From: Coleophoma eucalyptorum
Taxonomy: Eukaryota; Ascomycota; Leotiomycetes; Helotiales; Dermateaceae
Direction of reading: 5' to 3'
DNA length: 64,000 nucleotides
NCBI GenBank assembly: GCA_026120035.1
Contig: JALRME010000067.1
Coordinates: 31,303 to 95,302 of the forward strand
Shown in pieces: positions 9,883 through 58,400 of the stretch; within the stretch, counting starts at the first letter, position 1, and each line of letters opens with the position of its first letter. The notes under the pieces were generated by a model. That model saw only the letters and a list, made by a program, of their open reading frames with translations, did no database searches and was not told the DNA's origin. Position numbers and translations under genes: made by a program.

Positions 9883-10063
9883 TGTTGGTTACGTCAAGTA
9901 ACGTAAGAATCGACTGGTAGGTCAGCGGGTGTAAAATTGTTTCATAAGTGATCGATGTATGTTGAAGAGAGTGTGAGGCAGGGAGGTATAAATACCTCCG
10001 TCGCTAAGAATACTGTAACATGTGGCTAGGTCTCGTGATTTGCTTGTAAATGGCATTCCGACA
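9883..10063 (-). repeat. Solo LTR, family B, TSD CCAAT/CCGAT
   Basis: A 181-bp LTR in reverse orientation: its complement begins TGTCGGAATGCCAT and ends AACCAACA. The flanks CCAAT (9878-9882) and CCGAT (10064-10068) match at 4 of 5 bases, differing by a transition. It shares the internal box GAGGTATAAATACCTC-like (with a TATAAA) with all family-B copies. Confidence 0.8.
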
Positions 10064-11226
10064 CCGATATACGTAAATGTTTGGGGCTAATGAACGAGCT
10101 ATTATATCCTCTAAGCATCTTTAATTACATCGTCTCTTTATATTTTGCTATCCTAAACAGATTGATTTTGCATTTACATAAATTCCTGTGGTATAGCTGC
10201 ATGGCCCTTTGATTTCGATTTCGACACTCACCTTCATGAATCCCGTGCAGATGTAATCTAAACCCTCCCCAATTCTTATTTCTGTAAGTTGTTCCCATAG
10301 TTGTATTCTATTCTTCGTGATTAACTTAGTATAGTTATTATTAAAAGAATTATATGGTGGCCTGAATCATTTTTGTTCTTCTTTAGTTTGTTCCATTAAT
10401 CCGGTGCTTTTTTTGAGTACTCGAGGTAGTAGTTCTCAGAGCTAGAGTTGATTTTCTTACAAAAATAGCATCCCTTCCTCTTTTCGCATTTTTCTTTCGC
10501 CCCAGTATGTTTGTGTGCCTAGAAGTGATTCCCGTTACGTTTCCGTAAAGGAGAGTTTCTTGTAACTCGCAGCAATATCATGAATAAAGTCATCGAGAGA
10601 ATGAAGTTTTATGTGTGCATTAAATCTCTAACATTCTACTCATGCAGGGTACTTCTCGTTTATAGCCCTAATGGATATAATTAGTAGGCCTTGATAGGGA
10701 GCACAAACTCAAAGCATCAAGCTTGTACTTGGCTGGCTTGAGTTAAACAATGAATCTATCAACAATAAACACTTATCTCTTAATGTTTCATGTTTTGCCT
10801 CTCTTAGAACCTGTAGTAGTATAGCCTAAGACGAAAACCTAAGGTTTATGCTCGAAATTGACAACATTCGCGACAGAACGTACTCCCTTGTTATATCTTA
10901 CCTATTATCCTCCCTGTATTCTGTAGGGTCATTCCTCTGGAAGAATAATATCACTCCTTTTGCCAAAGGCTATAATTATCTCTGCGAAGCTTCATACCGC
11001 TCGTCAGGATTGATCTGATAAAGATGAGGGGCTTTTTATTGCTTGTTTTTGTGTTTTGTGCCTACAATATCTAGAACTCTTATCAATTCTGGTACGCTTC
11101 ATTGATGTCTAGATAAGCATCAAGCTATCATCCGAAGAAGATAACGAGAGACCTCAAGGCGACCTTAATTGGCGACCCTAGATAATCACAATTGGATATC
11201 AGCTTTAAACTCGTGGTGGTTATTGT

Positions 11227-33150: not shown

Positions 33151-34220
33151 ACATCCGTCCCTGTGTGCCGAAAAACCCTACGTGCCGAAAAAGGTTCACG
33201 GTTTTGGGGTCTGAAAAATCAACCACGCAAATATATTAAGTTATAGTTAGCTTACTATTGTTCCTTAGCTATTTCTCTGCAAGTACATATAACTCAATAG
33301 GGAAATATCACAACTGTAGTGATTCTATCGATCGTTTTGTCGCTGGCGTTGAAATTCACTTGATCTGTTCCCCCCTGCTCTAACTTGACTATCGGCCTGT
33401 ATTGAGATTTCGGGACAATAGAATGGATATCCTATCAAGAAGACGTAAAGCTAATAAACTTTGAAGCTGTAAAGAAAAAGGAATGCCTATGCCGAATTTA
33501 TCCGGATAAAGTGGGAGGTATGCAAAACGCCACGTATCCTAATAAACGAAGAAGTGGCTTGTATATAATATCATATTTTACAATAACGCTAGTTTTAAAT
33601 AGAATGGGATATTATATAAGTGCACGCGAGGCGTGGTGCACCAGGTGTTCTTCTGGGTGATGGTGTCAGCAGTTGCCTTTGAAATTTCAAAGTCAGCCAC
33701 AGCCACAAGTGACATTGATTATATAAGCTAATGCCTAAGTTAGTACCTGCTATATTTTACCAAAAAATATTTCAGTAATAATGGACCGCATATTCCTGCT
33801 CTAGCTATAAGTGGCTAGTTCTTCTATTAAAAGTTCTGATCGGCGTGGCGATCTCATATAAACCTGCTCGCCACAACACCCACCAAGGCTGATTAATAAT
33901 CTAGTATGGGGATAATGCTCTAAAGCTCTAGTAGAACCATTTTTAAAATATCCGAAGTAATAAGAGCTTGATGGTAGAGCTAGAGTGGAGGAGCTCTGTT
34001 TGAGCATAAATAAAGACCATTTGTAAACCAGCCGCGTAGGCGACGGCATCAATAAAATTATGTTCAAAAAGGTGTTTGGGATGCTCAGGGATAGGTATAT
34101 AACACAACTTATACAATTTCGATGTGTGTACAGTATAGGTTTGGATATATTTAAAGTCAAAGTAAGTTACTAAGGTATTTTTTCGGCACAGCGGGTTTTT
34201 CGCTACGCAGGGATAGACGT
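33151..34220 (+). mobile_element. E1: 1.07-kb TIR element, cargo-less relative of E3
   Basis: The left end ACATCCGTCCCTGTGTGCCG and the complement of the right end, ACGTCTATCCCTGCGTAGCG, form imperfect terminal inverted repeats of about 45 bp. Each contains two CGAAAAA-type subrepeats. TA lies on both sides (33149-33150 and 34221-34222). The left about 450 bp matches E3 50632 onward, including TTTATCCGGA. The right about 560 bp matches E3 54779-55346 closely. The NLR gene present in E3 is absent. A 119-codon minus-strand frame (33801-34160) recurs in E3 (54925-55242), but may be open only because the DNA is nearly identical. Confidence 0.85.
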
Positions 34221-34581: not shown

Positions 34582-35433
34582 TAAATTGGTGACCTACGCA
34601 GGGAATAGTTGTAATATGATGTGGTTCGTAGCAGCAGTACGAAAGTCCTCTGGTTCCGGTGCGTCCGAAAATATTACACGATACGAATAAGACGATGGAC
34701 AGCTGAGATGGGAGACGCGATGAATACCTACAAGAGCTACTACGGAGTCGTTATACAAATGGACTATGGATTGGATATTCGATCGAGTCAAGCATGGCAC
34801 GAACAGAAGACTATAGACTATACGTACGAACGGAACGATTAGTACCAAGATAGGAATTCGCGACGGATCCGACAATGTGCTATTAGGGAACTATTCACTT
34901 AGTTGCTCTACAAGAAGCATACGACACTGCTATAGTCATAATACCTGGTCTTGGATTTGCTACCTAGTACACCAGATATCGAGTGTAACTCTCTGGGAGG
35001 AAAGGAATAGCAGAATCAAGAGGTGGGATACCTGTAGTACCGGAAAATTGGAAAGAAGAGAGAACTAATGACGTGCGCTCTTTTGACTTTTTTGTTTGCC
35101 GCAGAAGCCGGATTAGTGTGCTGAGCTATTTTATGAAGGATTCCTTGGTTCGGAGAGGAATTAAAAAGAGAGTATTTGGAAAAGCTAATTATGCTAGGTG
35201 CCAAGCGGTACTTGGTAGAATTAAGGATATAGGATTAAGTTTATTGAAGTTATTTTGCGAATTGGAATTAGAGTTGAGCAATATAATATCAAGTGGTATT
35301 GTAAGTGGTTATTGTAGTTACGTGTATAACTACAATCCTACTTACTGTTTGGTTATAAGTCGCAAAAATCTTGCTTGACTTAATTAAGAACGACTACCTT
35401 GTTATTATCTGCTTTCGATTGGATCCAGAAAAT

Positions 35434-37920
35434 ATGTCGACTAAGGAACCAGCTCAAAGCCCAACTAGAGAAGTACCTCGAGGAGAGTCTTTGGGTTACA
35501 CTAGAGGTAAAGCTCGTTCAAGGTCGATTTCTTCTGGAAGTGCTGGTGCCAGAACGACTGCTTCTATTGGTGTAGGCAAGAGGCTGGTGTATTACCAACC
35601 AATGCCTATTCCCTATGGTTACGGGAGTCCTTATTTTGATGGAAGAGAAGTAACTCGTTACCTCAAAACCCTGAATAGGTGCTACAGAGACTATGGAATG
35701 GATGAAGATATTGAGAAGAAGGAACGTTCAGCCGATTATGCGGCGGCACAGCAACGTAGAGAGATTGAACGACTAGCAGGTTTTGCCAATCGCACTACTT
35801 GGGAGGAATTTCAGAAAGTCTTGCTTAAGGAATATCGCTACGGGGATTCAGAGCAATTGTTACATACGATGGGATACTTAGAGAAATACGTTCTAGAATT
35901 CAAAGCGATAGTCGATCATGGGAATTACTCTCAGAATCAAATCTACGACTATTGCCGAAGATTCTACGAAATCGGAACTAAGTGCCTCGAGAATGGATTA
36001 ATTACGGAGAAAGCATTGATCTTTAAGTTTCTATACGCCTTACCAAACAACCTAAAAATCAGAGCTATGCGGTTCGCTTCCAACGGAGTCCAATTTGATG
36101 CGGATAATATGAAACCATTCAGAGTGATTTACGAGGAAGTAGAGAACAGTTGTGCAGCCCTTAGGGATATGGATGACTTAGTTCAGGAACAAGGCATGGG
36201 CAAGCTGCCTACGGGGTTTGATAAGCTAGATATGGAAACTACTGGATATACTCAACAAAGGAAGCTACGAGAAAAAGGCATGAAGGAACCTATTATTCCT
36301 TATATACATACCGCGGCTACATCGTCCAAAACAATGACGGACCAAGAAATCGACGAAATCGCAGAAGGACTTGATAAATTACATATTCTACAGGCTATAG
36401 CGGAACGAGCTGAGCCTAATCCGAGAAGAAACAAAGCTTATGTGAATACTATGGAGGATGATGATTGTGAAGGAGATGTTTACGATGTGAATTATGGTGG
36501 CTTTACTAGTGGAAAAAGGTTTCGAGACGATGAGACTTGTAAATGGTGCAGGAACATCACAGTGCCAGGAATGAGGCCTCAAGGACCTCATAAGTATATG
36601 AACCAATTTTACGACTATAAGATGTTTATTGGTAAAGGAGTTATCCACGAATCGGACGATAACAACTATATCTGTATTGGACCCGGGGATCCGAACAAGC
36701 CAGAATTGCCAGTTCAGTTTAATAATGATACGCCTCGAAGGAACCAAATTATAGCACGGACTACCAACACTAAGTATAGTTATTTCCTTGAGCAACGAGA
36801 GGAAGCATTGAAACAGGAGGTGAGAGATAAGCAGGAAGCAATGAAGGCTCAACTGGTAGGAAGTACCAATGAGTGCAAGGTGGATAATATTGAGACCTTT
36901 GAAGAAAGCGAGTATGGACTAGATGACTTACTTTACGAACAAGACATTGATACTGAACGCTACGCTATGGTCCAAGGGATGGTAGCAAGAGATGCTGCTA
37001 TAGAAGCTGTAGCTACAAGAAATAAGAGGCCGAATAGTAGGGAAATCGGAGAGCCGTATTCGAAATCGGGAGAAAAGACTCTTCAGGACAGACTAAGAGA
37101 GCAGGCATCATATGGACAAGCGAAAGCTACACAGAGGCGAACTGTTCAATTTCAACAAAACATTGTTGATAGCGAGAATGCTGAGGAAATAACTGGTATA
37201 CCTACTAGCTCAAGGAATAAGGAACCTATTAAGGTTACTAAGATTTTGAGGAACCCTTTACGACAAAATGGTGTTACAGAGACTTTATCAAAAATGGGAT
37301 ATACCTATGAGAGCTTGCTGAGCAAGCTTTTGGAACAGTCGACAGTACCACCTGGATTTACACTTGGAGAGGTGCTTTCTCTAGCAGATCCAGCTTTTAG
37401 GAAACGACATAAGGTAGTTCCAAAAGAAGCTAGTGCTGGAATGTTAGCTGTCGAAATGGAGAACGAAGTGGCTGAAGTAAATCCTCTTTTTATAGAGAAC
37501 TTTTCTGGCTATTCGGATTACCATTCACCAACTCCGAAAGTCATTATTACACTTTCGGAACGTACGAAATTGGCAGATGTAAGAGCTACATTAGACACGG
37601 GAGCTGAAGTTAGTGTTATTACGCTAGCTGTAGCTACTAGGTTTGATATACCTATTACGCATAACACTGGGATGGCACTACGAACGATCGTAGGGAGCAA
37701 GTCTAGGTTTGTAGGATTTGTTGATAACGTACCTGTTACTATTGGAAACGCTGTAATACGGACTCGGTTCTATATTATGGACTGCCCGGGTATTAAGGTT
37801 ATCCTTGGGTTCCCATTTATACGAAAAGCTAGGATTACGTTCCAATACCCTAGGTTTTTCCTGCATACGAGAAGTATAATATGTCATGCTTTCCATGGCT
37901 CTCTGACCACCGAATATTAA
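35434..37920 (+). CDS. Truncated gypsy-type retroelement: Gag plus aspartic protease
   Basis: Uninterrupted frame; the ATG at 35434 (MSTKEPAQSPTRE) gives 828 residues, while an earlier in-frame ATG lies at 35371. The N-terminal half is capsid-like Gag (YLKTLNRCYRDYG, WEEFQKVLLKEYRYGD). A Cys-rich bit (CKWCRN) may be a remnant nucleocapsid finger. Near the C-terminus LDTGAEVSVI (from about 37591), then a beta-rich stretch with ILGFPFIRKA, is a retropepsin fold with the catalytic Asp. The frame stops at 37920. No reverse transcriptase, RNase H or integrase follows, so the element is truncated. It sits about 0.85 kb after the LTR and is not visibly RIP-damaged, unlike other repeats here. Confidence 0.82.
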   Translation: MSTKEPAQSPTREVPRGESLGYTRGKARSRSISSGSAGARTTASIGVGKRLVYYQPMPIPYGYGSPYFDGREVTRYLKTLNRCYRDYGMDEDIEKKERSADYAAAQQRREIERLAGFANRTTWEEFQKVLLKEYRYGDSEQLLHTMGYLEKYVLEFKAIVDHGNYSQNQIYDYCRRFYEIGTKCLENGLITEKALIFKFLYALPNNLKIRAMRFASNGVQFDADNMKPFRVIYEEVENSCAALRDMDDLVQEQGMGKLPTGFDKLDMETTGYTQQRKLREKGMKEPIIPYIHTAATSSKTMTDQEIDEIAEGLDKLHILQAIAERAEPNPRRNKAYVNTMEDDDCEGDVYDVNYGGFTSGKRFRDDETCKWCRNITVPGMRPQGPHKYMNQFYDYKMFIGKGVIHESDDNNYICIGPGDPNKPELPVQFNNDTPRRNQIIARTTNTKYSYFLEQREEALKQEVRDKQEAMKAQLVGSTNECKVDNIETFEESEYGLDDLLYEQDIDTERYAMVQGMVARDAAIEAVATRNKRPNSREIGEPYSKSGEKTLQDRLREQASYGQAKATQRRTVQFQQNIVDSENAEEITGIPTSSRNKEPIKVTKILRNPLRQNGVTETLSKMGYTYESLLSKLLEQSTVPPGFTLGEVLSLADPAFRKRHKVVPKEASAGMLAVEMENEVAEVNPLFIENFSGYSDYHSPTPKVIITLSERTKLADVRATLDTGAEVSVITLAVATRFDIPITHNTGMALRTIVGSKSRFVGFVDNVPVTIGNAVIRTRFYIMDCPGIKVILGFPFIRKARITFQYPRFFLHTRSIICHAFHGSLTTEY

Positions 37921-41584: not shown

Positions 41585-41791
41585 ACGTCTATCCCTGCGT
41601 ACCCTGTAACGAGACAAATCGTAGATACTTCGAGTTCAAGCGACGTAACGTCTATAAACGCTTTAAAGTTTCTATCCATTTTGATTTCAGTTATATTATA
41701 TACGTCCCCCGAACACTCCTGGCCTATCAATTCCGAAAACTATTATCGCGTCGTCGCCGTCCCTTTAGTTTACAGAGAGCCTCCTTTTACA

Positions 41792-42730
41792 CTATAATAA
41801 GACCCCTTGATGTGCGACACTACCGTTAGGTTTTTTTTCGCTTTTTAAACAACGAGCATACATAGTTCCAATTAGCTGCCCTATTTCGTCATCCGTAATA
41901 GAATTCCATGCTTCTAAGGCTGCTGTTCGTAACCGTGGATAGGATCGGTGGTAGTCAGGGTACCACCTTTGTATGTAGTCTTTCATCCAATCCCATAGAG
42001 TCTCTATAGGGTTTAAATCAGGTGAATTTGATGGCCAGAATATAGGATAAATACCTCTTTCTACCATTGCTGCTCTTGTTTCTGAAGCATTATGTCCAGG
42101 AGCATTATCTTGCATATAATTTAGACTATTTGCTTGTAAATAAGGCTCGAGGACAGGAAGAATACGCTCACAATAAGAGCTAGCTGTAATTGAGCCCCAG
42201 TCCTTCTCCTAGACAACTCCAGGCCCACGGCCATATAATCCTGATATAGACCCCCAAAACATCCATCCTATTTTCTTACGAAGTCATGGCTCAAGACAAT
42301 CAGGATGTAATTGTTCTCCTGGCCGGCGTGTAATTCTAACTTTCTTATGACTACCAGGCTTAATCCAGGTCTCGTCTGCGCCCACTGATCCCAAGACCAA
42401 TTAATATGCTCAAGGGCCCATTGGTATTTCCTCCCAAGGCGTTCTCCTATTCTTTTTTGAGGCACAGACCCAATTAATAAGCTGCTTTCTTTCAGCCGGA
42501 CCAAGTAGAGGACGTCGTCCTGACTTCTTCTTTTGAGGTGTAGTTCGATGTGTAATAGCACAAGTAACTTGCCCTAGACGTAGGTTTAGCTGTAATGCAA
42601 TATCATCCTTTGACCATCTAGCTTGGCAGTATAGTGTTTGAGCCCGGATCCGGTCATCTCGTGAGAATATTTTCTGCTATGTTTTAAGGTTTGGAATCCC
42701 ATAGTACTGGCTATTGTCAAGTTCTGACAT
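41792..42730 (-). pseudogene. Tc1/mariner-type transposase, broken
   Basis: The frames read MSELDNSQYYG, SRDDRIRAQTLYCQARWSK and SGRRPLLGPAERKQL (HTH half). An internal deletion and frameshift follow, then RRPGEQ, GWMFWGSISGLYGRGPGV, the second catalytic Asp in MQDNAPGHNA, and WPSNSPDLNPIETLWDWMKD holding the third acidic residue. In the family this DDE/D enzyme cuts and pastes at TA sites. At least three stops or frameshifts inactivate it. Short imperfect ends (CACTATAATAAG near 41794 and a CACCATAATATGG complement near 42880) hint that it is a separate insertion inside E2 that cut off the ankyrin array. Alternatively it could be E2's own decayed transposase. Confidence 0.8.
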
Positions 42731-42875
42731 CGTAATACTTGGCAGCGTCGCAACACGTATTGATATAAGTAATCTGAATGATAAGTTTGCAAGCCAATCT
42801 AGAAACATCGCTACTTTTATCAATCTTCTAGAAGTTTGAAGAATTCTACATAGTAGGATATAAGCCGTGTCCATA

Positions 42876-45800
42876 TTATGGTGGTGGGAGGGGTGGCTGG
42901 TTCTTTCCATCAACTCGTAAGTCAACATTCAAAGCTTCTCTAGCATCGAGCAGCAGCTTGACCACGGCCTCGTGCCCTCCCCCTGCCGCCCACGATAGCG
43001 GCGTCAGACCATCTCCTCCTGTATCCCTCGAATCGACGTCCACCTTGCCTGTCTCGAGCAGCAGCTTGACCACGGCCTCGTGCCCTCCCCCTGCCGCCCA
43101 CGATAGCGGCGTCCGACCAAATCTTGTGGCCCTCGAATCGACGTCCACCTTGCCTGTCTCGAGCAGCAGCTTGACCACGGCCTCGTGCCCTCCCTCTGCA
43201 GCCCACGATAGCAGATTTCTGTTTTTTTGAAAATCAATCTCATCTTTCATTTCAAGAAGTGATTTAATAGACTTTTGATACTCTGTGATTGTAGAGGAAG
43301 AACGGTTAAGAGGCACCATTCCAATTGACCACGCACTGGTATCTGGTAACAAAAGTGCTCTTAGAGCAACTTCATTCTTGTGAGCTAGTGCCACATTTAG
43401 CGGGAAGCTGTATCGTTCTCCTTTTATATCCAATTGCGGAACTCGGTCAAGCTCAATCCGGATAAGTTGCGGTAGGTTTTTCTCCGAGAGAATATATAGC
43501 AAGCTGCAATGAGGTGTATGTCGCCGTATCTGATACTTCTCAAAGAGGTTGTCCAAATAGATCCATTCGCTGATGGGGAAAGTCTCTATGAAACGAGTTT
43601 GGGAGACCCCGTACTCACTTGCTACATCGGCATGATAAAGCACGTTATGTGTTGCATATTCCAAAAATGGAAACTTTGTAGTTACTTGTTGGCGGAGACT
43701 CACAGCGTCCTTAGAAGATGCAGCTGGAAGCGGTGTGTCAGATGACAGGTATTCTGAGGTATCAATTCTTGCGTAGGTTTGACAGCACTCCTTGAGCCGC
43801 TGGTGACTAAATGCTAGAAAGTTGCTGTCAAGGTGAAGCTGAAGAGTGTCGAGACCATTTTCGTTTAGGAGAAAATCTCGAACAGATTCATGAATGAACT
43901 GAATTGTTGGATGCTTGGACTTGGTCATTTCTGCGAGTCCCTTAGACGAACTGAGTATGTACTTTCGCATGTCGATCTCTGTGATATCTTCAGGGCTCCA
44001 TTCAGCCAATCCATCAGCTGCAACTCCAGCTAGCATAGCAAAGTACAGTTCCTGAAGTTTCATGGGCCGTTTAGCGTATAATATCCACTGGAGGCACAGA
44101 ACAAGGTCTTCGACATTCTCGTTATCTCGGGTTAAAATGTCTCGGAATAGCGCACCTAAGTCGTCCGGGATTTCGTTAAGCCGATTCCGAAGCGCATGGA
44201 TACGACCACGATCATACTCTTTATTCAGCATTGGAACAACAAGGACAACCCATAGGAAAACTCCAGAGGCTTTTTCAAGCATTTCGTCCCGGATTGTCTC
44301 CATTGCCTTGCTACGTCCAGCCTTTAGTTCGCCATGTAAATAGTTGGCGATGTCCTGAGAGTGACCGTCCTGGTCTTCTAAGACAAGGGATACAACTTTT
44401 TCGATTGTAATATGGGGGTAATGGCGACTTGAGAAACAGACGCGTAATTGGATTTGTGATGAAACTGCAAATTGTCCAAGACTTTCAAAGAAAGCCACCA
44501 TATCGCGTGCTTCATCCTCCTCGCACTCATCTAGAGCGTCGATGAAGCAGGTCAGGCGGTGTCGCCCGAGGCGCTCTATAACGCGGCTGAAGAAAATCTT
44601 CGCAGTCTCAATATCCCAATCAGAGTCATCAGACCCGCTTGGCTTAAGTAATTTGAACGGATCTTGGATGTCTGGAAGCTTCTCTAGGAGCTGAAACAAT
44701 AAGGATCGGTACATACCTAATGAGGATTTCTCTAAGTCTGAACCCCTTGCGTTGAAGAAGAATGAGATAAGAATTGCATCTGCCATGGCTTTCTTGCCAT
44801 TTGCGTATACAAACTTCATCAAAGTCGACTTTCCGGTCCCGGGTTTTCCCTTGAGCCATAGAAAGCCATGATGGTTGGATATCTTACTGTCGTCAAGCCA
44901 TTCCTTGTACTGGGGTGTGCTGAGTAGCCATTTGCATGTTTTTGCGTGAGCATTCTTGATTGTCGCGTGTCGAGTATCAATTTGATCAAACCTTAAGCGA
45001 TCTAGAAATTTCTGTCGTTGATTTGCGTCGGTGGGTGTAAGTATATCAGAAGGGGCTGACTTTGTTGTAACTGTTATAACCCTGTTGATAGCCGCAATCA
45101 CCTTCTTGTACTCAGCATCGTTATATCCGCTAAATCGACACATGTCCATGTGATTGCTGGCAATGTGTAGAGCAGATTCGATTGTTGGATCATTCAGACG
45201 AGAAGCAGTGTCTTCAACAACCTATTAAATTTAGTACGTTCGATAAGAATATTTGAACACATACCTTTTCACTACCAATGGCTATGTCCCCGTATTGTTC
45301 TTGAAAAGAAAATATTGTCCAACACCTATTACGAGCAATTGCGCTAAACCTCTTATTCCATTCCTTTAGCTGTTCCGCATAGAGCAAAAGAGTGTTAATA
45401 ATATGATCATTGACCTTGAAATTATTAACTTTGATGACCTGATCGATAGTAAATTGAATCAATTTGCCGAAATTTGGACCATTATGAGGCGTTCCAAAGA
45501 AAATAATGCCAGAGGTTCCCTCGTAGATACTATGAAGATGGCCCTGGTGTTCATTGCATCCGCTGGATCTTCGTAGCGCCTCCATTACGACGATGCCGCC
45601 GAGGCTATGGGCAATAAGTACAAGCGGCCTTAACGACTGGCCACGGCGTGCTGCTTCCAATCTGACAAGGAAATCCCACGCAATATCCTTGACTATGCTC
45701 CCCTCCATGGCATAGCCACCGTGGTAAGTCGGACTCGTGTCGTATCCATACGTAAGGACGCGCGCATTTGGGATGTCGATTGGAACAAGATCTCGTGGCC

Positions 45801-46860
45801 AGTAAATTGATTCATAGTCTTTACTTTTATTTTTATAGGACGCTGCAGACGGGAGCAATTTCTGTCTTTTGGATAGACGTTCACCGTCACCGACATTATG
45901 TATATCTTGGACCTGACCGACTTCTTGAATCTGACTCCACGTATGTTCAGGATGACCTGTGAGACCATGGAGAAACACAATACTACCCTCGGGTTAATGA
46001 ACCATCAAATGTCAGGACATAATAGGTAGATCTTACTCTAGAGCAGGCTGGTCCGGATCAACAAGCATTGAAAGACCGTTCCTGTAAGGCTCCGATGCTT
46101 GGCTTAACGACTCGGCCTTTACGGGCTTATCAATCTCCTCCATGAGACGAAGAAATGCGTTCTTTTTCCCCTCGCCATACATAGCTGGTAGGTGGATATC
46201 GAAAATACCAAGAAGAGAATACGCCGAGTCTTCTTGGCGTGTAGTTTCGCGCCGTTCTGCCCACGACAAGCGCTCATCAACGGTAAAGCAAGATAGAGGA
46301 CTTCCCCAAAGTGCTTGGATAGGAATCCCCGTTGCCTTGTAAACTTGTTCCTTCAGCGATGTCTTATCGCCAAGTCGGTCGCCCTCTCCTGAGAAGAATT
46401 CGACTGACACTGGAGCAATAAGCTCTTGAAGTGTCCAGCCTCGAGTGAACCATTTGCTTTTCAGAAATGCTGCTTCCCATGGGATCTGTGTCAAACCACT
46501 ATTTGTACTTCCATCATATCTCAAAACGTCAGACATGTACACGTAGCACTTTGCCGCCCCACTGTACCAGCGAAACATGGAGTTGATTGCCTCAGAGAGC
46601 TCGGCGCTACTCGACTTATCAATGCAACAAGTGTCAATCCAAAAGTATTGTAAGCCATGGCTGGCAGCTTGTTTTCCGCAAAAATGGATCTTGCGATAGC
46701 CATCCTTGTCCTTGCCAGTATCCTCCATCAGGTCTTTGAAGGTGACCTCGTCGCCAGTCTCCCCCCACGTATGCGAGAGAATAGCATAGGGAGGAATGTC
46801 ATCATTTAAAAACTCGATCGGGCTGAATTTGTCTCCTTTACTTCGTTGCAGGAGACGCAT
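42876..46860 (-). CDS. HET-SESB-NACHT-ankyrin NLR (heterokaryon-incompatibility type)
   Basis: Exons 46860-46037, 45982-45265 and 45221-42876, with GT-AG introns of 54 and 43 nt in frame, give 1295 aa. Domains: HET (residues 1 to about 270) with YAILSHTWGE at 25-34, WIDTCCIDK at 74-82 and RGWTLQELIAP at 140-150. SESB-type alpha/beta hydrolase (about 274-514) starts at IVFLHGLTGH, with AHSLGG carrying the nucleophile Ser. NACHT has the P-loop GKPGTGKST at 639-647 and Walker B FIDALDE at 740-746. Three ankyrin repeats at about 1183-1285 are nearly identical, with DNA periods of 108 and 105 bp. Fungal NLRs of this kind sense non-self and trigger cell death through the N-terminal effector. The array ends abruptly in a proline tail next to the Tc1 remnant, so it may be shortened. 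Having both HET and SESB upstream of one NACHT is unusual. The gene lies within E2. Confidence 0.88.
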
Positions 46861-47466
46861 TGGTAGACGTAAAATTCAGGAGCGGGGGTAGAAGAAAATG
46901 GATGACAGGTCTCACAGAGCTTTGACTTTAAATCGTTGTTTGTACTTTAACTTTTTGATAAGGTAGACTATCTGATTGACAGACCAATCCTCAGACGCTG
47001 GCAAGAGACTAAAATTTGAGTTGCAAAGCAAACTTGGAAGAAGGACCGCTGTGCGTGGGGAAGGCGTAGGGAAGGGAGTAGTTCACGTTTCCATTGTGCA
47101 CAATGAGGCCACCTAAATTCAACTACCGCCGAGGAGGCTCAGTCCGGGCGGAGCAATGCGGGACCGCCTAAGCGGGAAACCTCCCTGGCAATGATGTGCA
47201 CTGTATTTCTCCACTCTGGGTTGCTACGGTACCCATAGGGCAGACTTGAGCTCCTCAGGCAGAAAGGCTCTGAGTATCATATGACATAGCGGAACGATGC
47301 CGGCTGCCGCCCACATAGCGGATTCTCCCGGCTACAAGGCTCTCCTAGGCCCAGGCACCAGCGTGCTGCTGCTCACCTAAGTTAGGTATGGAATTTTCTA
47401 GGAAATGCTACTACGCCACACCCGTGACTGATCCTGAGAATCGTGGCTGAGTAAATTATAGCGAGC

Positions 47467-47799
47467 CTAGGCGTGAGCATAGTAAATTGCATCTCGGCTA
47501 ATATATATTGCTAAGCACTGAAATATGTGAACCCTCTCGTCGCACCGGCGTAACTCCCGGACTATGTTCTTTCCCTCTGGGAGCGTCTTTAAAATTTGGA
47601 GGTATGGTATTTCGTGACAGGAACTTTCTTTAAGTGCTCCGAATTTTGAAAAGACTTTGAAAGTCGCATTTAAACAGGGGAGAACAGCGGAGGCGGTGAT
47701 CGGTGGCGTGATTGAAACGATCGACAGCATATTCAGCCGCATTCTTTTTTTGGTTGCTAAGTGGTCTCCTGAGGGACAAATAGTTAAAGAAAGTCGCAT
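47467..47799 (-). CDS. Small ORF in the block shared by E2 and E3 (coding uncertain)
   Basis: 110-codon frame. Its C-terminal half (KVFSKFGALKESS to RRCDERVHIFQCLA) lies in DNA homologous to E3 51188-51345, where the same frame is broken by stops. It has no recognised domain. It could be a remnant of the element's own gene, or an untranslated but conserved structural or regulatory segment. Confidence 0.3.
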   Translation of the reverse strand: MRLSLTICPSGDHLATKKRMRLNMLSIVSITPPITASAVLPCLNATFKVFSKFGALKESSCHEIPYLQILKTLPEGKNIVRELRRCDERVHIFQCLAIYISRDAIYYAHA

Positions 47800-47899
47800 A
47801 TGAGTAACAACTTCGCAAACTTGCCAAGAAAAAATTGTGATTCCAAAACTATATACTCGTCTCGTTACAGGGGGTGTCTCGGGACGCAGGGACAGACAT

Positions 47900-49300: not shown

Positions 49301-49981
49301 CTATCTGAATTTTTTTGATGTCAAATTTGCAGCCGAACCTCTCAGATGCTGTTGTAAAGTCTCTTCTGTAAGCTCAATCTCGTTAACTCCTGTATTATCC
49401 CGACCCCCAACTTCGGGCTTTGGCTTGCTGATCGACACAAGCTGGTGAACTGAGGAGAGTTCTATTTGATTGGCTTTTGGTAAAGTTACGTGCCACACTT
49501 CTCGCAAGTTTGGTGTTATCTCAAAGAGGCTTTCAGAGAAATTGTTCGCTACAATCAATATATCGATTATATTCCTGATTCTACGCCAGTCGGTATGCTG
49601 AGACTCGGCAAGGTGATCACCTGTGTCGCTGAAGTAAAAGGCTTCGTGCGTAATGTCAACGCGAAAGGGTTTCTTATTATATAGCTCCAACGTGTGTGGA
49701 TACTGCTCATAAAAGACACGTAGCGAATCGAGACAAGTGTGTTTTAGGGCGCGATGTGTTGGAATGCACAATTTACATTCGGGCGTGATATTGTTGATGT
49801 ATGTCACTTTGCTCTCAATATCGATAACTCGTCGCTCTAGCTTCCAGTACTCCGGCCAGATTATTTCCCGCAGTTTCGTGGGGAGTTCTGGGAACTGATG
49901 GAATAGCCTTGGACGTTGTTCTGCCGCTAGTTTGAATATGGGGCCTCGTAGATTAACGTATTTCACAAGCGAGTCGGACAC
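49301..49981 (-). CDS. 2EXR-domain protein
   Basis: ORF of 226 residues. Residues about 27-70 (FHQFPELPTKLREIIWPEYW-RRVIDI) match the 2EXR motif, F-xF-ELPxELRxxIW, common in uncharacterised Pezizomycotina proteins. The middle (THRALKHTCLDSLRVFYEQY, FRVDITHEAFYFSD) is also typical of the family. The C-terminal 30 residues are a polar tail. The family has no known biochemical function and is often expanded in accessory regions. It lies between elements E2 and E3. The start MSDSLVKYVN is the first Met in frame, and the F-box-like 2EXR segment begins soon after, as usual. Confidence 0.75.
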   Translation of the reverse strand: MSDSLVKYVNLRGPIFKLAAEQRPRLFHQFPELPTKLREIIWPEYWKLERRVIDIESKVTYINNITPECKLCIPTHRALKHTCLDSLRVFYEQYPHTLELYNKKPFRVDITHEAFYFSDTGDHLAESQHTDWRRIRNIIDILIVANNFSESLFEITPNLREVWHVTLPKANQIELSSVHQLVSISKPKPEVGGRDNTGVNEIELTEETLQQHLRGSAANLTSKKFR

Positions 49982-50134
49982 GAAAACGCTAGAACACTAC
50001 AATTTCTAGTATAATATAAACAAACACCTTTAAAGACAATACTTATTCTATATCAATTGGATTCTGAGATTGCTTGTATGTACGAGCATTATGTCTAATA
50101 CGATTACATAAGCTATAGCGTCGTCGCTACCCTT

Positions 50135-50400
50135 TTAAGTCCTTAGGATGTGTAGCTTTATTTCTTTTGTCTTGTAAGGCCTTTGCCTCAGCTTTAGGAA
50201 GTGCAGCCGAATAGACCATAATTTGAGCTCCTTTGACAAGCTGGTCAAATGCATGGTCAATTGGAGTTAGAGAACTATTCTAGTGTTGTATAATACGGTC
50301 TTTAATGTTTGAGGTCTGGAATTCAAGCTCTATTGTATTCTGTAGTGTCTTTGATATCTAATCTAGCCCTTGGATATGAGGTAGTAATAGTGGTGTTAGT
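50135..50400 (-). pseudogene. Pogo/Fot1-type transposase C-terminal relic
   Basis: The minus strand reads PIDHAFDQLVKGAQIM, VYSAALPKAEAKALQ and a lysine-rich tail, interrupted by two TAG codons upstream. This layout (LVKGxxxxxxSAxLLxxExxxL) is that of the C-terminus of fungal pogo/Fot1 transposases. No catalytic part remains. Confidence 0.45.
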
Positions 50401-50508
50401 GTTTTTAATTGGAGATCTAGGTGGGAGAGGACATTCTCTAGATTGTACGGAACTAATCCTATAGCTCGTAATCTACCTCTAATATTCTACTCTATAAAAG
50501 TAAGTAGC

Positions 50509-50631
50509 TGTCGAAATGCCATTTACAGGTTAATCACGAGACTTAGTTACATGTTACCTACAGTATTCTTAGCGAGAGAGGTACTTGTACCTCTCTGCCT
50601 CACACTCTCTTCAATACACATGAACCAACTA
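50509..50631 (+). repeat. Left part of a family-B solo LTR split by E3
   Basis: Starts TGTCGAAATGCCATTT and is preceded by GTAGC (50504-50508). It runs to GAACCAACTA, where E3 begins. The right part resumes at 55349. Confidence 0.9.
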
Positions 50632-51184
50632 ACGTCCATCCCTGCGTGCCGAAAAAACCGGTGTGCCGAAAAAAATTTATAGTTCGAGGTCTCAAAATTT
50701 CACTATAGATATATATAAAGCTAAGATCAGTTTTCTATTGTTCTTTAGCTATATATCTATAAGGGCTTGACTTGTAGTTAGAAAATATTAAAGTTTGGCC
50801 ATGCTGTCGATTGTTGTGTTGAGAGCGTCAAAAGCTGCAACAGCTGTTACTCCCTGCTTTATCATAATAATCGACCTGTCCCCAGAATTCGAGACGGTAG
50901 CATAGTGCTTACATTGAGTTTCAATATAGCTCTAAAGTCTGAAGATATAAGGCTTAAGGAAACCTGCCTGCCGTATTTATCCGGACAAAGGTGGGAGATC
51001 TACAAAATGCCACATCTAATAAGCGAGCAAGGATTTGGTATTGACATAGTACCGTATTCAGAGTTACGCTAGCCGTAATTTTGTAATTTTATATGTCACG
51101 TGTAACATAGCATCTTGTGATGACCTCGGAAATCCTGTGCGGCTGATCGCGGCTTCGGCTGCCCCCACCCTGCTTAGTCGTGAC

Positions 51185-51345
51185 TATTAAGGTCTCTTTT
51201 AAATTCGGAGCACTTAGAAAAAGCTTCCATAACAAAGAATCGGGTTCTAAATTTTGAAACGCTCAAAAAGAAAATGACAAAGTCCGGAAATTACGCCGGT
51301 GCTAATAGACTAGCAATATGTTTCAGTGCTTCGTAATACTCATTA
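51185..51345 (+). repeat. Internal block shared between E3 and E2
   Basis: ATTCGGAGCACTTA, AGTCCGG-A-TTACGCCGGTGC and TTTCAGTGCTT occur here and, in reverse complement and the same order, at about 47500-47660 in E2. It lies about 550 bp from the E3 left end and about 220 bp from the E2 right end. Confidence 0.85.
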
Positions 51346-51457
51346 GCCTAGTTATAGTAGAACTGTAAATTAAAGGAGATTTCTGGTCTATTCTCCAGTT
51401 ATGTTAATAGGTGTACTATAAGTAATAGCAGAGTTGTGAAAAAGAAGCTCTTATAGC

Positions 51458-54240
51458 TTATCTAATGTTTAGCCGCTTTCCTAACTTGCGGAGTCTCTGC
51501 TTTAAAGACTTTGATTTTGTTGCTCCGGGCTCTATAAACTCATTTTGACCTTCTTTTGACTCGGCAGACGCAACTTGCAACGCTTGAAGTCGATCTTCAA
51601 GTTGCTTACACCAGTTCGAAGAAGGCCCGTAGACAGCTGTGTACCCGGAAAGCGCTCGATTATACATCGCTTCTGCTTCTGCTAGCTTGCCTTGGTTAGA
51701 ATAGAGGTTGCCTAGGTTGTTGACCGTATCGAGTGTCGACGTGTGGTCCGGTCCAAGTGCCTTCTCACAGCCTTCTAGCGCTCGGATATACATCGCTTCT
51801 GCTTCTGCTAGCTTGCCTTGGTCAGAATAGAGGAGGCCTAGGTTGTTGACCGTTGAGAGTGTCGACGTGTGGTCCGGTCCAAGTGCCTTCTCACAGCCTT
51901 CTAGCGCTCGGATATACATCGCTTCTGCTTCTGCTAGCTTGCCTTGGTCTTTGTAGAGGTTGCCTAGGTTGTTGACCGTTGAGAGCGTCGACGTGTGGTC
52001 CGGTCCAAGTGCCTTCTCACAGCCTTCTAGCGCTCGGATATACATCGCTTCTGCTTCTGCTAGCTTGCCTTGGCCTGAATAGAGGTCACCAAGATAGTGA
52101 AGAGCCCAATAACATCTGTCTACACCTACTTTGCCATCTACTATAAAGAGGGCCTGTCGCGTTGCGTGCTGAAGGAGACGCCGCTGTAAGAGCCACCAGT
52201 ATTTCTCATTTGTGCTAGGAACCTCTGAGGCGACACAAATTAAAGCCAAGTATGCTAGGCTCTCGTCCCACTCCTTGTTAAGTACTGACTCCGTCCATGA
52301 GTGAATACAGCTATGTATACTATACCCTCCAGATCCGACCTGCTGCTGAAGAGGCCGATCTGAATCAACTAGTCCGAAAGTACATAGCAGAGTAATAGCC
52401 TCGTTAAAGTTTAGTTCATCCTCTGTAAGCTTCTGTATCCATTTATCCTCTATAGAGTTTGTATGCTGAATGAGGTCAAACCATAGGTCCTGTCGATCAA
52501 AATATGCCCATAGCTTGAGTAGTTTTGCTGATGCTCTATTCTGCTGTTGGATCCGATCGAAAGTGATTTGCCATGTCGTATGTAGTGTACGATCTTCATA
52601 GGAATCTAACAGAGGACTTGTTATCTGAAGCTTCAACCATGATGTCTTATAAAGCTGAAGATAATCCGAGAAGCTCGTCGTCACGTGCTCGAGATATATA
52701 CCTGCTGTGGACAGGGCAAGTGGTAGACCGTCTAGTTCTTTGACAAGTGCTATAGCATCAAGATCTACTTTATTAGTATTGTCTCTATTCTTACTAAATC
52801 ATATAGACATACTCTGTTCAATATGCTTACGTCCCGACATATTCGAGAGGATTTCAAGACTGTCTCTAATATCTGGTAACTTTTGAACATGAATTCGTTC
52901 ACCCTGCCTAACTTGTGATGACCGCGTTGTAATGATAACTGAGCCGTGATCCGATTGAGGAAGGAATTGACGGATGTCGACCGAGCTATAGGGATTGTTA
53001 GGTGTCTTAGGGTTGTCGAGGTTATCATAGATCATGAGCCATCTTGTGTTCTGTGGGAAGTCAAGCCAAGCCTTAACTGTACTAACAACTTGATCGAGAT
53101 CTTCATCTTGGTCTACGCTTGCTAGGATACTAGTTGACGGGTGGTGCCTGAGTACTTGCTGGGCGATACTCCGAAAACTTAGCTTAAGAGAATCCTCGTC
53201 ATTAGCGTTCAACCAGAAAATCGCCGTATATTTCTCCTTGTGTCGTCTAGCATATGTGATCGCCAGCTGAGTCTTCCCTATACCCCCAAGACCATGTAGG
53301 ACGACACAAGATCGACTACTATTACCTTGAAGTAGCTCGGGCATTATCGATAGCTCCTTCTCTCTGCCAACAAGCTGTACGGCTATAGGAAATGACGCGA
53401 GGTTAAGCTCGACAGTAAATTGTTCGAAATCCATCCCTATACTAGTTAGTTTCATTATTTCACTTAGTACATCTATATAAAAAGCTTACCCTTATATAAC
53501 CTGTGGATCTCTGCCTCTAGCCGCCTAAATGCCTGGTCCCTTCTTTCCCCATAATTAGGTACCATAGACACATCGAAGATACCGATCAAGCAATATGCCT
53601 GATCCTCTTCAATCGTAGTATGACGACGCTCTGCCCAGGATCTCCGCTCTTTAATACTGAAATTCGATAACGAATCGCCTCGGAGAGCATTGTTTGCGAT
53701 ACCGGTAATCTCATGTATCGTAGACTCAAGTAATAACTTGTTCCCAATTCGATTACCCTCCACGCTAAAAAAGTCAACTAGCCTTGGTGCAATGAGCTCC
53801 TGTAGCGTCCAGCCTCGAGTGAACCATCGACTCTTCCTGAAAGCATCTTCCCATACCCGATAGTCATCCGCCCCAGGGTCCGACTTAGAGACATCTGTCA
53901 GGTAGACGTAGCAGCGCGCAGCGTTCTGATACCACCGAAACATAGAGTTGATCGCCGTACCAAGCTCAACTGCATTCTTCTTATCGATACAGCAGGTGTC
54001 CACCCAGAAGTATTCAAGCCCCTCAACTGCGGCCTGCGTCGCACAGAACTGTATCTTCCTCCACCCAACCTTGTTCACAGTCTTGTCCTTGTCCTTGCCC
54101 TTCTTCAAGTCTTGATAGATGACCTCCTCTTCTCCCCAGGTATGAGAAAGTATTGCGTAGGCAGGGACTTCGCCGCTAGTAGGTTCGCGAAAGACAATCT
54201 CGCCATTAGGTCTGCGTTGTAAGAGGCGTATGAGTGACAT
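51458..54240 (-). CDS. HET-NB-ARC-TPR NLR (heterokaryon-incompatibility type)
   Basis: Exons 54240-53490, 53436-52831 and 52782-51458 give 893 aa. The first intron is clear (53 nt, branch CTAAC). The second (48 nt, 52783-52830) is inferred to keep frame. HET domain: YAILSHTWGE at 28-37, WVDTCCIDKK and RGWTLQELIAP. NB-ARC: P-loop GLGGIGKT at 299-306, kinase-2 WLMIYDNLD, and ELDGLPLALS (GxP motif) after the second intron. Four TPR units of 42 aa at about 685-860 (GKLAEAEAMYIRALEGCEKA) are almost identical in DNA, period 126 bp. The protein would bind a ligand through TPRs, oligomerise through NB-ARC and signal death through HET. It is the sole gene of E3 and appears intact. Confidence 0.88.
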
Positions 54241-55348
54241 GCTGGAGGTTCGCGAGCGATCTCATAGCAAGCGCGACTACGATTTGAAAATCGAGACGTT
54301 GAAAGACTAAGGGTGAGAAGGGTATGAAGGCGTTGTGGTAGACGCCCACGAGGCTGTATCATGGCGTAACCTGGCCCGCGACTTTCGTAGCGAAGACAGA
54401 AAGAACGCGAAGGACTCTTCATTTTATTAGAACCTTACACACTAGACTGATTCTAGGACAAGTTGTCCGTTGTTGTCAAGATACCGGCTTCTACAAAGTT
54501 GAAGAGCAGCAAGATATTGTAAATAGATATTCACCAGGATAGGACGGTTACAGTATGAGAGCATCCACAGTCGCTGAAAGGACTATTGCACGCAAGCCAC
54601 TTTCGTTTGGCAATCTTCGTGCCTGGAACAATTATACCAGGCACCAAGGCATCGAAATTATTACTAAGATGGAGCGAAAACAAAAATCATTGAATTTCGA
54701 ACCTCACACTAATTCCGCTGATTACTGTACATTCAAAGATAATGTAACTCACGTTCAAAGATGATGTACGAGTTGAAATGTCGTGTCAGCAGTTGCCTTC
54801 GAAATTTCAAAGTCAGGTTTATTTTGCGTCAGCCACAGCCACAAGTGATAATGATTATATAAGCTATTCCGCGACGTACTTTACAATAAATATTACAGTA
54901 ATAAGGAGGCGGCGTATTCTTGCACTAGCTATAAGAAGCTAGTTCTTCGATTGGAAGTATTGATCGGCGTGGCGATCTCATATAAATCCTGCTCGCTATT
55001 ACACCACGAAGGCTGATTAATAATCCAGTATGGGGATAATGCTCTAAAGCTCTGGTAGAACCATTTTTAAAATATCCGAAGTAATGAGAGCTTGATGGCA
55101 GAGCTAGAGTGGAGGAGGTCTGTTTTAGCATAAATAAAGACCATTTGTAAACCAGCCGTGTAGGCGACGGCATCAATAAAATTATGTTCAAAAAGGTGTT
55201 TGGGATGTTCAGGGATAGGTATATAACACAACTTATACACAAGTATAGAAGATTTCGATGTGTGTATAGTTTTGGATATATTTAAAGTCAAAGTACTAAG
55301 GTTTTTTTTCGGCACAGCGGGTTTTTCGCTACGCAGGGATAGACGTTA

Positions 55349-55417
55349 CTTATGAACACAACTTGTGCCTGATTTGACTTGAGAGTCACCTATTACGTTA
55401 CTCCACGTAAACCAACA
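55349..55417 (+). repeat. Right part of the family-B solo LTR split by E3
   Basis: CTTATGAACACAACTTGTG to AACCAACA, the 3' end of family B (compare 11340-11416), followed by GTAGC (55418-55422). It completes the LTR begun at 50509. Confidence 0.9.
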
Positions 55418-58400
55418 GTAGCTTTAAATACCTCCTTAAATATAGAGAGGAATTTAAGCTTAGTAGTATAATAAATTCGAACCCGAATTAGATTCTCAAT
55501 TTGCTTGCCATGTACTACTTTAACTAGACTAAATCATCCAATATCAAGAGGCTAGCGTATACAAGAGGAATACGATAGTATATAGAGTATATTAATGCTA
55601 TTTTCAGTATAGTATTGCTAGAATTGAGCTAAGAGGTAAGATTCGTAACTATCTAGAATTAAGAGACGATATTTCTTAATTATACGACCTCTTGTGTATT
55701 TATCCAAGTATCGAATATACTTGAATCTAAGTTTGTTCGTAGTATACGTATTCTTACTTAGTATTATTACCTAATCCTATGGGAGGCTAGAATCTTTATA
55801 CTAGGCCGAGAGGTGGTTCTATCCTTTGAAAATAATGAATAGAGGAATTATCTAGCCGTACGAATTCTTATGTTTTATAATTGATACTTTTGGGATAATC
55901 CGGTATCCTTATAAGGTCTTTGAGGGGCTTCTGCAGAGGTCTTCGGTTGTGGGAGTTTAGAATAGAGTTGCATTCCGTAGTATTGACCGTGTAGGGTCGA
56001 AGGAGGTACGTTGTATACTATAGCAGTAGCTCTAGTAGTATTAATTTGACCTTGATTAAGCGCTTAAATAGCTAAAAGAATCCTACCCTCTTGATTAGAA
56101 GGTACTTGATTTAGTAGAAATATAATAGGTGGTAGATTGATTAAATTTGATGCGTTCGCGTTCTAGCGGTTTCGTGTCCGACTCGCTTGTGAAATACGTT
56201 ACAACTTTTTCAGTGTAGCAAGAATCAGAATTGAGGTTAGATCTGCTCCCGGAGATTGAGAGCCCTCCACCTTTGAAAAAGTCTGTGGCTTTGACCAATA
56301 ATCTGGCCCTGGCCTTGTGTCCAAATACGCTCTTACATTTGGATGAGGTCGACCCTGTTATGGAAGCATATGTTCTCATGATGCAATGTGATTCGACAGT
56401 CAAATATAAATGACGCAGCTTGGCTACTGACTGCCACTTTCCGGTCATGGCCAAGAAACCAAGACTTCGTCAGCATTGTGTCCTAAGCAATTTCAATCAC
56501 ACACGGCATATTGCGAAGGATCTCGCTTACCCTTCTTGGTCGAAGGGGCATTATCTTCCCCCGTAAGTGAGACATTCTGGTTGGTTGTTCTTCGTCATCA
56601 TAATGTTGTTGTAGCCTAAGGCTATGGAGTGCCGCCTTTTTGATACTTTGATGAGGACCACTCTTTCTACCTTGTTCTTTGAAATTTTGAAATTCGATAT
56701 TGACCGACACATTCTCTTGTGTTGGCATTGCTTACGTATGAAAGGTCCCAGAATTTGGCGGTACCATTACAATATGTCCTGCTTGAGCAATAGGAAGTCA
56801 AAAATCGAAGCTGACCGTAATAAACTAGGTATCTCGTGGATAAATGAAACATTGAGTGAAATCTCCTTGAGAGTCACCTTTTGACAACTCGATATCAGGT
56901 GTCTGGACATCTGTATTGTGCACCAGCACAGCACAGAACCTGAGTCTGCGATAAAAAAATTAGATAGGGTGCTACTTACTTACGCTGACAGAACATATCT
57001 AGATTAGAAAATACGTCGGTGACGCCTTCAGCATTGTCATCACTAGGTCTGTGTAGCTACACTCATATTGAGGCACTATAACTCATAACTATATATAATA
57101 CGAATCCTTCTGATGTAGACGAAACTCACAATATTGCACAACCTGGGAAATAGAGTTTTATAATCTAAGCTGCATAGGCTCAATTTGACAAAACCTTCTT
57201 CACTTGGTTACTTACTACTTTGGGCAGAAAACATCGACATGTGCTTGATAATTTGGGTCAATACTGACCAGTTGAAAATTGTAAGGACGAGAATTCATCA
57301 AAAGTATGACCGGCTTATTTCGGGTTTTAAATGTAACAAAGTATTTCAACGCTCTCAAAGGCAACACTCGCAATCGCCAGAATTTGCGAGCTTACCTAAG
57401 GCATGTCAATCTTCAAATTTGCCGAGTTATGAGGACACAATTGTTCAAGTTCAAGAGGGAGACTTTGGACCTAAACTTGGGAACGACTCTTAAAAGTCCG
57501 AGCAAGACCTCTATCACGTTTAAGGCTTAACTTATGCGAGTGGATATTGAATAGGATGTACTGAGAAGAATATAGGCGTATTAGTTAGTTTGTAGAACTC
57601 AATACGATTCCATGTGTGGCTGTTAAATACAGGATTGCATCCGCTAGTCTCTAAATGCTTGTTACCATTGCTATGGCCCAAGGCTAATAAATAGCGTGTA
57701 GCAAAGTCTTCTACATATTAAATAGAGTCACAAAGAGTGTTTCCTGCCTTGGCGGGACTGTAAGCTTTATATAGGTCACGCGATTGCATCTCGAGGCAAT
57801 TGAAATATTCAGAATGATGAACCACTCTATTTACGTCTGCCTGCCGAAGAATGTCATTACTACAACGAATCGACAGTTAGTAGTATTGCAGGATAAGCTG
57901 GAACGGCTGAACCTCCTCGGTGGCGGTAATGGCAATGTGGATAGATCCAGAGAGGGCAAAGTCGAGGCATTGCGACAGCTCGGAGAAGAACTCGAAGAGT
58001 AACTTAGAGGTGTCGCGGAAGCTGTTGCGAAAGTCGCGGGGAGCCAGAGTGGCTCAACTAACTTACAGTGGTGTTCGATGCTTTCAAGCTAGGACTATTA
58101 ATGACGGAGCCAGTAAAACTGCTTTTAGTAAGTTAGCAAGGAAACATGAAATATACACTAACGTGATCAAAAGATTCATTTTTTAAGAGACTCTTTACAC
58201 AAGGTAACTGAAACTACAATGTACCCAGTACTTCGGAGCAGTAATTGTTAATATTTAAGAGAAGGAGTTATTAGTACTATTCTGCATGGTATCTAATACT
58301 ATTACGGCTCCGTTGTTCCATTTTTACTAAACGCAACGATCCTACTACGAACAAGTAAATAACATATCTCGTCTAAAACTTCTAGATCCCCGCAGCCTAC

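Follow-up and report, generated by a model that had tools for sequence, protein, structure and literature searches.

A 4715-bp element, here called E3, lies in a 64-kb stretch of Coleophoma eucalyptorum DNA (the window, part of contig C65; genome 45.26 Mb, 101 contigs) and carries one NOD-like receptor (NLR) gene between terminal inverted repeats (TIRs). We propose, with a probability of roughly 0.82, that E3 and the genome-wide family to which it belongs are non-autonomous Tc1/mariner-type elements carrying whole genes. The superfamily assignment is based on the TA target and the ACGT ends. The DNA itself shows the ends with their TA copies, empty sites, a second copy, a whole family, an open gene model and a bias resembling repeat-induced point mutation (RIP); all empty-site and copy comparisons were made inside this one genome.

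E3 extends from 50632 to 55346 (no strand assigned), limits defined by its ends, the adjoining TA, an empty site and a second copy. The left TIR (50632..50676, plus strand, GCCG type) and the right TIR (55302..55346, minus strand, AGCG type) were placed by end alignment, and these 45-bp inverted ends are alike in 43 of 49 columns, the TA counted in. The two target-site copies of TA, at 50630..50631 and 55347..55348 (neither stranded), were read in the sequence; a TA target duplication is a feature of Tc1/mariner elements of the Fot1 type. Allowing up to three mismatches, the end pattern occurs at six sites in the window, against 0.01 expected from shuffles. All frames of at least 150 aa within E3 are parts of a single HET-NB-ARC-TPR gene. 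An original prediction, made for this stretch before the present analysis, had described inverted ends of about 45 bp with TA on both sides, a size of 4715 bp and this gene as the only large one, and all of this was borne out.

Evidence that E3 arrived as a unit comes from the solo long terminal repeat (LTR) that it splits. Comparison of the joined flanks with other LTR loci assigned the first part of the LTR to 50509..50629 and the second to 55349..55417 (both plus strand). Fused with one TA, the flanks form a 192-bp LTR with GTAGC on both outer sides, and these LTR target-site duplications (50504..50508 and 55418..55422, no strand) were read in the sequence. The joined flanks were compared with seven LTR loci of the genome (L002-L008). 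Five of them align over the whole length with 79-87% identity and a total of 2-8 gap positions; L006 and L005 match over most or part of the LTR; the match starts at the exact first LTR base in five of the seven. L002 and L004 carry the same bases around the E3 site with a single TA, which constitutes an empty site. Both the split LTR that closes with one TA and its exact GTAGC copies had been predicted, and the intact LTR with one TA, proposed as a check, was found in these other copies in the same genome. The predicted nesting of E3 in the LTR also stands; it was incomplete, as both lie inside a decayed Fot1-type element that runs from TIR to TIR at 49954..56201 (no strand), recognized by its inverted ends at 49954 and 56201 and by a DDE_1 remnant at 55495-55848. 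The nest is thus at least three deep.

A second copy of E3 and its NLR gene, with TA on both sides and the same terminal bases, is located at C72:57261-63188 (5928 bp; contigs are written as C and a number). It is 95-98% identical to E3 and contains 1008 bp more, corresponding to eight whole 126-bp TPR units, plus a 187-bp insert. When fused with one TA, its flanks align to the right portion of E3, the alignment running gap-free across the junction, and we therefore conclude that this copy landed in another family member. The predicted movement of the 4715 bp as one unit is supported by the LTR empty site together with this copy, and the copy also answers the proposed search for further copies. 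The two copies differ at 120 positions, 85 of them transitions; 56 of these 85 lie in a CpA/TpG context, where the T or A is in C72 for 39 and in E3 for 17. Stop codons interrupt the HET and NB exons of the C72 copy. As judged from these substitutions, the bias looks like RIP acting on the duplicate. Fewer sites differ in the HET and NB exons (15 of 1375) than outside the gene (57 of 1932; p 2e-4).

The NLR gene of E3 lies on the minus strand. In the gene model, with domains assigned by Pfam, exon 1 (53490..54240) encodes the HET domain, exon 2 (52813..53436) NB-ARC, and exon 3 (51458..52764, stop codon included) the end of NB-ARC and the TPR region; the predicted introns occupy 53437..53489 (53 nt, canonical sites) and 52765..52812 (48 nt). 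This predicted two-intron model describes an intact gene of 893 aa. HET, NB-ARC and several TPR models score above the Pfam curated cut-offs, so that the effector, nucleotide-binding and repeat domains of a fungal NLR occur together in the predicted protein. Repeat alignment identified about 3.5 copies of a 126-bp (42-aa) TPR unit at 51651..52086 (minus strand), and the number of these units has changed fast between the E3 and C72 copies. The complete gene claimed originally is intact by this model, with one correction: it includes an in-frame TGA at 52799-52801, which the model places in intron 2, between canonical sites. We rejected the possibility that the TGA has killed the gene, as it falls in the predicted intron. 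Both predicted introns are also present in the C72 copy, and in a relative on C52 a shift of frame marks intron 2 at roughly the same position. The gene would be spliced and expressed as modelled, and we infer a role of its product in self/non-self recognition or defence.

Close relatives of the E3 protein are widespread. Over its first 640 residues, the nearest are 82-84% identical (Lachnellula, Clarireedia, Rutstroemia, Sclerotinia and Cadophora) and those from Coleophoma 79%, among 34 hand-picked of the 120 matches listed. Sclerotinia is, we assume, probably of the same order as the present fungus. In a tree, the E3 protein stands beside a partial Lachnellula protein (support 0.996) and apart from the Coleophoma proteins, a grouping that paralogy could also produce. 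One other gene of the window has its best named match in Coleophoma (83%), followed by fungi that we take to be Helotiales; because this gene looks multicopy, the host placement that it gives is only approximate.

The original prediction treated E3 as a single element and missed that its ends belong to a family found throughout the genome. These ends read TA followed by ACGTCYRTCCCTG, that is, TA, then ACGT, then a repeated motif, and inverted ends beginning with ACGT are again a feature of Tc1/mariner elements of the Fot1 type. The repeats are of two broad kinds, GCCGAAAAA or CCCGAGACG, with mixed forms too. With at most one mismatch, the pattern TAACGTCYRTCCCTG occurs at 100 sites in the genome, compared with 11 for a backward control; the left end on C46 is too diverged for this list. 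The ends are often linked to each other, which was the second proposed check: 47 of the 100 sites form 24 convergent pairs, and the other 53 are single, far apart or decayed. Sixteen pairs, spanning 0.9-8 kb, were treated as delimited elements, a set that leaves out the longer convergent pairs (C75, 12-18 kb; C72:42634-65251; C52:53081-62667). NLR loci on C79 and C29 with family ends on one side only were excluded from all counts. TA flanks both sides in 14 of the 15 delimited elements read, the exception being C32 with TG on the left, and in the C13 pair TA is present in both pattern matches. Two further members lie in the window: W1 (41585..47899, 6315 bp, no strand), which has TA on both sides, and E2 (33151..34220, 1070 bp, no strand), which was recognized by an end match and has ends of the E3 type around an interior with no frame of 150 aa.

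A recognizable non-transposase gene is present in 14 of the 16 delimited elements. The family thus has host coding DNA between TIRs and no transposase, as Pack-type elements do. Besides E3 and the C72 copy, a HET-NB-ARC-TPR gene is carried by C52b (C52:120481-124840, L014; one stretch reads N), in which the gene is inverted relative to the ends; the interior is therefore not tied to one orientation. The element at C34:108504-115583 contains a NACHT_N-NACHT-ANK gene, that at C46:546618-554528 a DUF676 esterase and NACHT-ANK, and W1 (41585-47899) has HET, a hydrolase-like frame (below the cut-off) and NACHT-ANK on the minus strand. C52x (C52:20002-26276, L073 with L030) carries HET. The remaining cargo consists of PrpF (C31), DUF7587 (inner C49), abhydrolase (C43), GFA (C32), PNPOx (C55), an NmrA-like frame that is a partial match (C28) and PNPOx in pieces (C13); E2 has no large frame, and outer C49 has short frames only, one of which was scanned without a Pfam match. 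The PrpF and PNPOx frames cover nearly the whole of their Pfam profiles.

NLR genes prevail among this cargo. They occur in 6 of 13 tested elements, against 0.145 expected from the 118 merged NLR loci of the genome, and, when E3, C72 and C52b are removed, in 3 of 10 against about 0.11; these values come with caveats, in that the genome-wide lists give minimum numbers, NLRs and transposons could be concentrated in common compartments, and likeness to the E3 gene, besides the ends, had a part in the discovery of C72 and C52b. E2, outer C49 and C13, which gave no NLR match, did not enter the 13-element test.

Empty sites were also sought for other members of the family. The joined flanks of C55 identified one at C55:20751-20826 (95%, spanning the junction), and those of inner C49 gave continuous matches at C48, C28, C90 and C35 (73-75%). 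No empty site was found for W1, C31, C34, C46, C52b, C52x or E2, whose joined flanks matched themselves or one side (the flanks of C31 and C52x are short).

We then weighed other explanations of the E3 structure. Two independent gene-less miniature inverted-repeat elements could flank a resident NLR that never moved with them, and the same ends do occur on members that have no gene or are very short (E2, C52:57572-58203 and 236-bp elements). However, the LTR closes across the entire E3, and the C72 copy, with identical boundaries at another site, already contradicts this explanation, which we regard as extremely improbable. We give equally little credence to a Starship or other giant element having brought in the NLR, with the E3 ends being incidental: one NLR is described on a Gaeumannomyces Starship in the part of that report available to us (PMC12134995), but the present unit measures 4.7 kb, has short TIRs and TA, and is repeated at a second site. 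The captain of a Starship is a DUF3435 tyrosine recombinase, and E3 itself contains no frame of 150 aa besides those of the NLR gene. A less remote, still unlikely alternative is classic Pack-type transduplication, in which host genes were copied, the originals persist elsewhere and the captured copies are by-products. The anatomy would be the same (TIRs, target-site duplication, no transposase, host-like genes inside), and NLRs resembling that of E3 occur without family ends at C8, C47 and C52:84691; these homologues share 80-83% DNA identity with E3. Their likeness is confined to the gene and its vicinity, and no family end occurs in the flanks read, up to 1.5 kb, which also supports our main reading of E3. 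Against this alternative, pieces of 300-500 bp from seven cargoes (C34, C46, W1, C31, C43, C32 and C28) matched nothing else in the genome at the DNA level, and the only second copy of the C55 PNPOx gene (93% DNA identity) sits inside the C13 end pair. For PrpF (N-terminal 59 aa only), PNPOx and the hydrolase, the nearest further homologues share 31-56% protein identity, and, as noted, the PrpF and PNPOx frames are nearly complete.

Several observations weigh against the interpretation of the family as mobile carriers of whole genes. Movement of an NLR as a unit is proven only by E3 and C72, whereas for C34, C46, W1 and C52b the case is built on ends and TA. The ends of W1 are alike at only 18 of 25 positions, and their inverted match is weak (14 bp, E 0.41). 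The left flank of C46 recurs (98%) at C46:557321-557439, 2.8 kb past the right end. Of the 15 HET/NB codons that differ, nine have an amino-acid change, which in two cases is a stop codon in C72; these differences therefore do not demonstrate selection on the protein. The other difficulties concern the enzyme. Among the transposase loci read, none had paired ends matching those of the family, and none of the 104 DDE_1 matches starts inside the 15 tested intervals (inner C49 being nested in outer C49). TIRs were recognized at 18 of the 30 DDE_1 loci, out of 104, that were read for them, none with the E3-type motif. In addition, the TIRs of Sclerotinia Tc1-Mariner elements lack direct repeats, unlike the family ends here, in the section of that study consulted (PMC4188875). 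Finally, 3 of 12 DDE_3 matches lie in or beside family members, which points to another enzyme class.

No DDE_1 transposase was found inside E3 or the other intervals tested, and the elements are therefore at most non-autonomous members of Tc1/mariner. At 13 of the 30 DDE_1 loci read, the TIRs start with TAACGT and have repeated motifs that differ from those of the family. One DDE_1 locus, L039, includes a single family end, and this end is part of the C55 element next to it. That the mover is a DDE_3 (Tc1/IS630-like) enzyme and not a Fot1-type DDE_1 enzyme, a question that concerns the enzyme only, is the less likely option, albeit one with appreciable weight. Two of only 12 DDE_3 matches start inside the tested intervals (C52x and W1), and an open 331-aa DDE_3 frame (C48:15780-16772) is situated 0.5 kb inside an orphan family end (C48:15275-15281, L077/L083; 83% to the C31 end over 41 bp). 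This C48 gene is a candidate mover. However, TAACGT is incomplete at the C48 end and the 5.1 kb beyond it yielded no partner, the W1 match is a C-terminal fragment, the C52x gene most likely belongs to a nested element, and the ACGT ends of the family resemble those of Fot1-type elements of this genome. The Tc1-like DD34E transposase in C52x was set aside as the mover for this reason: exact inverted repeats of 15 bp (E 0.12) flank it, with, by eye, CAGT-type ends and TA. C52x thus holds HET genes together with a probably nested, apparently complete Tc1-like transposon, and the DDE_3 fragment of W1 lies at 41795-42208. A DDE_1 gene on C94 (frames 8737-10773) was likewise rejected, having its own 131-bp perfect TIRs; this Fot1-type transposon (L081, L082; C94:8597-10936) is near a GAGACG-kind end at C94:13784. 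DDE_1 matches within about 1 kb of contig ends were seen on C4, C14, C28, C44, C45, C46, C59, C61, C77 and C90, and may represent either subterminal elements or assembly break points.

In our model E3 would be mobilized in trans: a transposase supplied from another locus would recognize the repeated motif of the 45-bp ends, cleave at ACGT and integrate the unit at a TA. The layout of the ends favours a Fot1-type enzyme, and the gene was probably captured at the DNA level. The NLR would move with the 0.8-1.1 kb of flanking DNA carried on each side, perhaps comprising its own promoter and terminator; since this DNA comes along, the NLR may not depend on signals at its new location. E3 would be one member of a family enclosing whole genes, NLRs above all, and each new copy produced by transposition would then be open to RIP-like mutation. 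We tentatively extend this to a cassette system of small TIR elements moved in trans, each with one whole accessory gene and NLRs as the main cargo, a system that would distribute receptors across the genome and whose gains and losses would lead to receptor polymorphism among strains, perhaps even among species; at present we consider this possible, at somewhat less than even odds.

How fungal NLR repertoires are built and varied is an open question, and RIP is expected to penalize duplication. The conflict between NLR duplication and RIP is raised in a 2025 study of Sordariales, where the words Starship and mobile were unmatched in the text available (PMC12258605). E3 and its RIP-marked copy present both sides of this conflict in one genome. 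NLRs between family ends can move around the genome as ready-made units, and small elements moving a complete NLR would be a direct route to presence/absence differences between strains.

Gene carriage between TIRs is already known, one fungal Tc1/mariner family included; in our literature search we came across no repeated carriage of whole NLRs. Accordingly, the original statement that such an element is undescribed holds for NLR cargo within the open-licence literature searched, where neither a small TIR element with a complete NLR nor an end family doing so repeatedly was found, and fails for gene carriage as such. A close precedent is Pyrenophora tritici-repentis, in which an open reading frame with osmosensory transporter coiled-coil domains lies between Tc1/Mariner TIRs (46 members) and a histone H3-like gene in a hAT element (PMC3538342, from the portion seen). 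Like E3, the former places a host gene between Tc1/mariner TIRs. However, there one frame was amplified many-fold, apparently with the transposon's own coding region, whereas the end family described here encloses at least nine different kinds of cargo gene, any one kind occurring in one to three elements as far as tested; NLRs prevail, and no transposase was identified. Plant Pack-TYPE elements, including Pack-Mariner, are also non-autonomous TIR elements with host coding DNA, and are described in the excerpt consulted as carrying short gene portions that match host genes (PMC8903248); here the genes are mostly whole, with introns in E3, and the cargo tested has no close parent gene, E3-type NLRs excepted. 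The histone H3 hAT elements of Pseudocercospora fijiensis are likewise ascomycete DNA transposons with a host gene and RIP on the copies, but, according to the passages available, with an 8-bp target-site duplication, an H3 captured from transcript and hundreds of inactivated copies (PMC6710886). Starships also move accessory genes, NLRs among them, as was originally stated and as the Gaeumannomyces case confirms; the same partial source describes them as giant, with many genes, and classed by a tyrosine recombinase (PMC12134995), in contrast to the 4.7 kb, TIRs and TA of E3. Finally, the Tc1-Mariner elements of Sclerotinia sclerotiorum share the ACGT ends, with TIRs of 36-70 bp, but are 1.8-2.3 kb long and transposase-coding, with no cargo reported in the part of the study seen (PMC4188875).

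Other features of the window were also noted. The right part of E2 is 84% identical to the right end of E3, and its right flank has a 96% match in the interior of the C34 element. From 63172 onward, near the window and contig end, the sequence shares about 73% identity with positions 1-260 of E3 and is the left end of a further family member. An 853-aa frame at 35359-37920 has a retroviral-type aspartyl protease match and is probably a retrotransposon gag.

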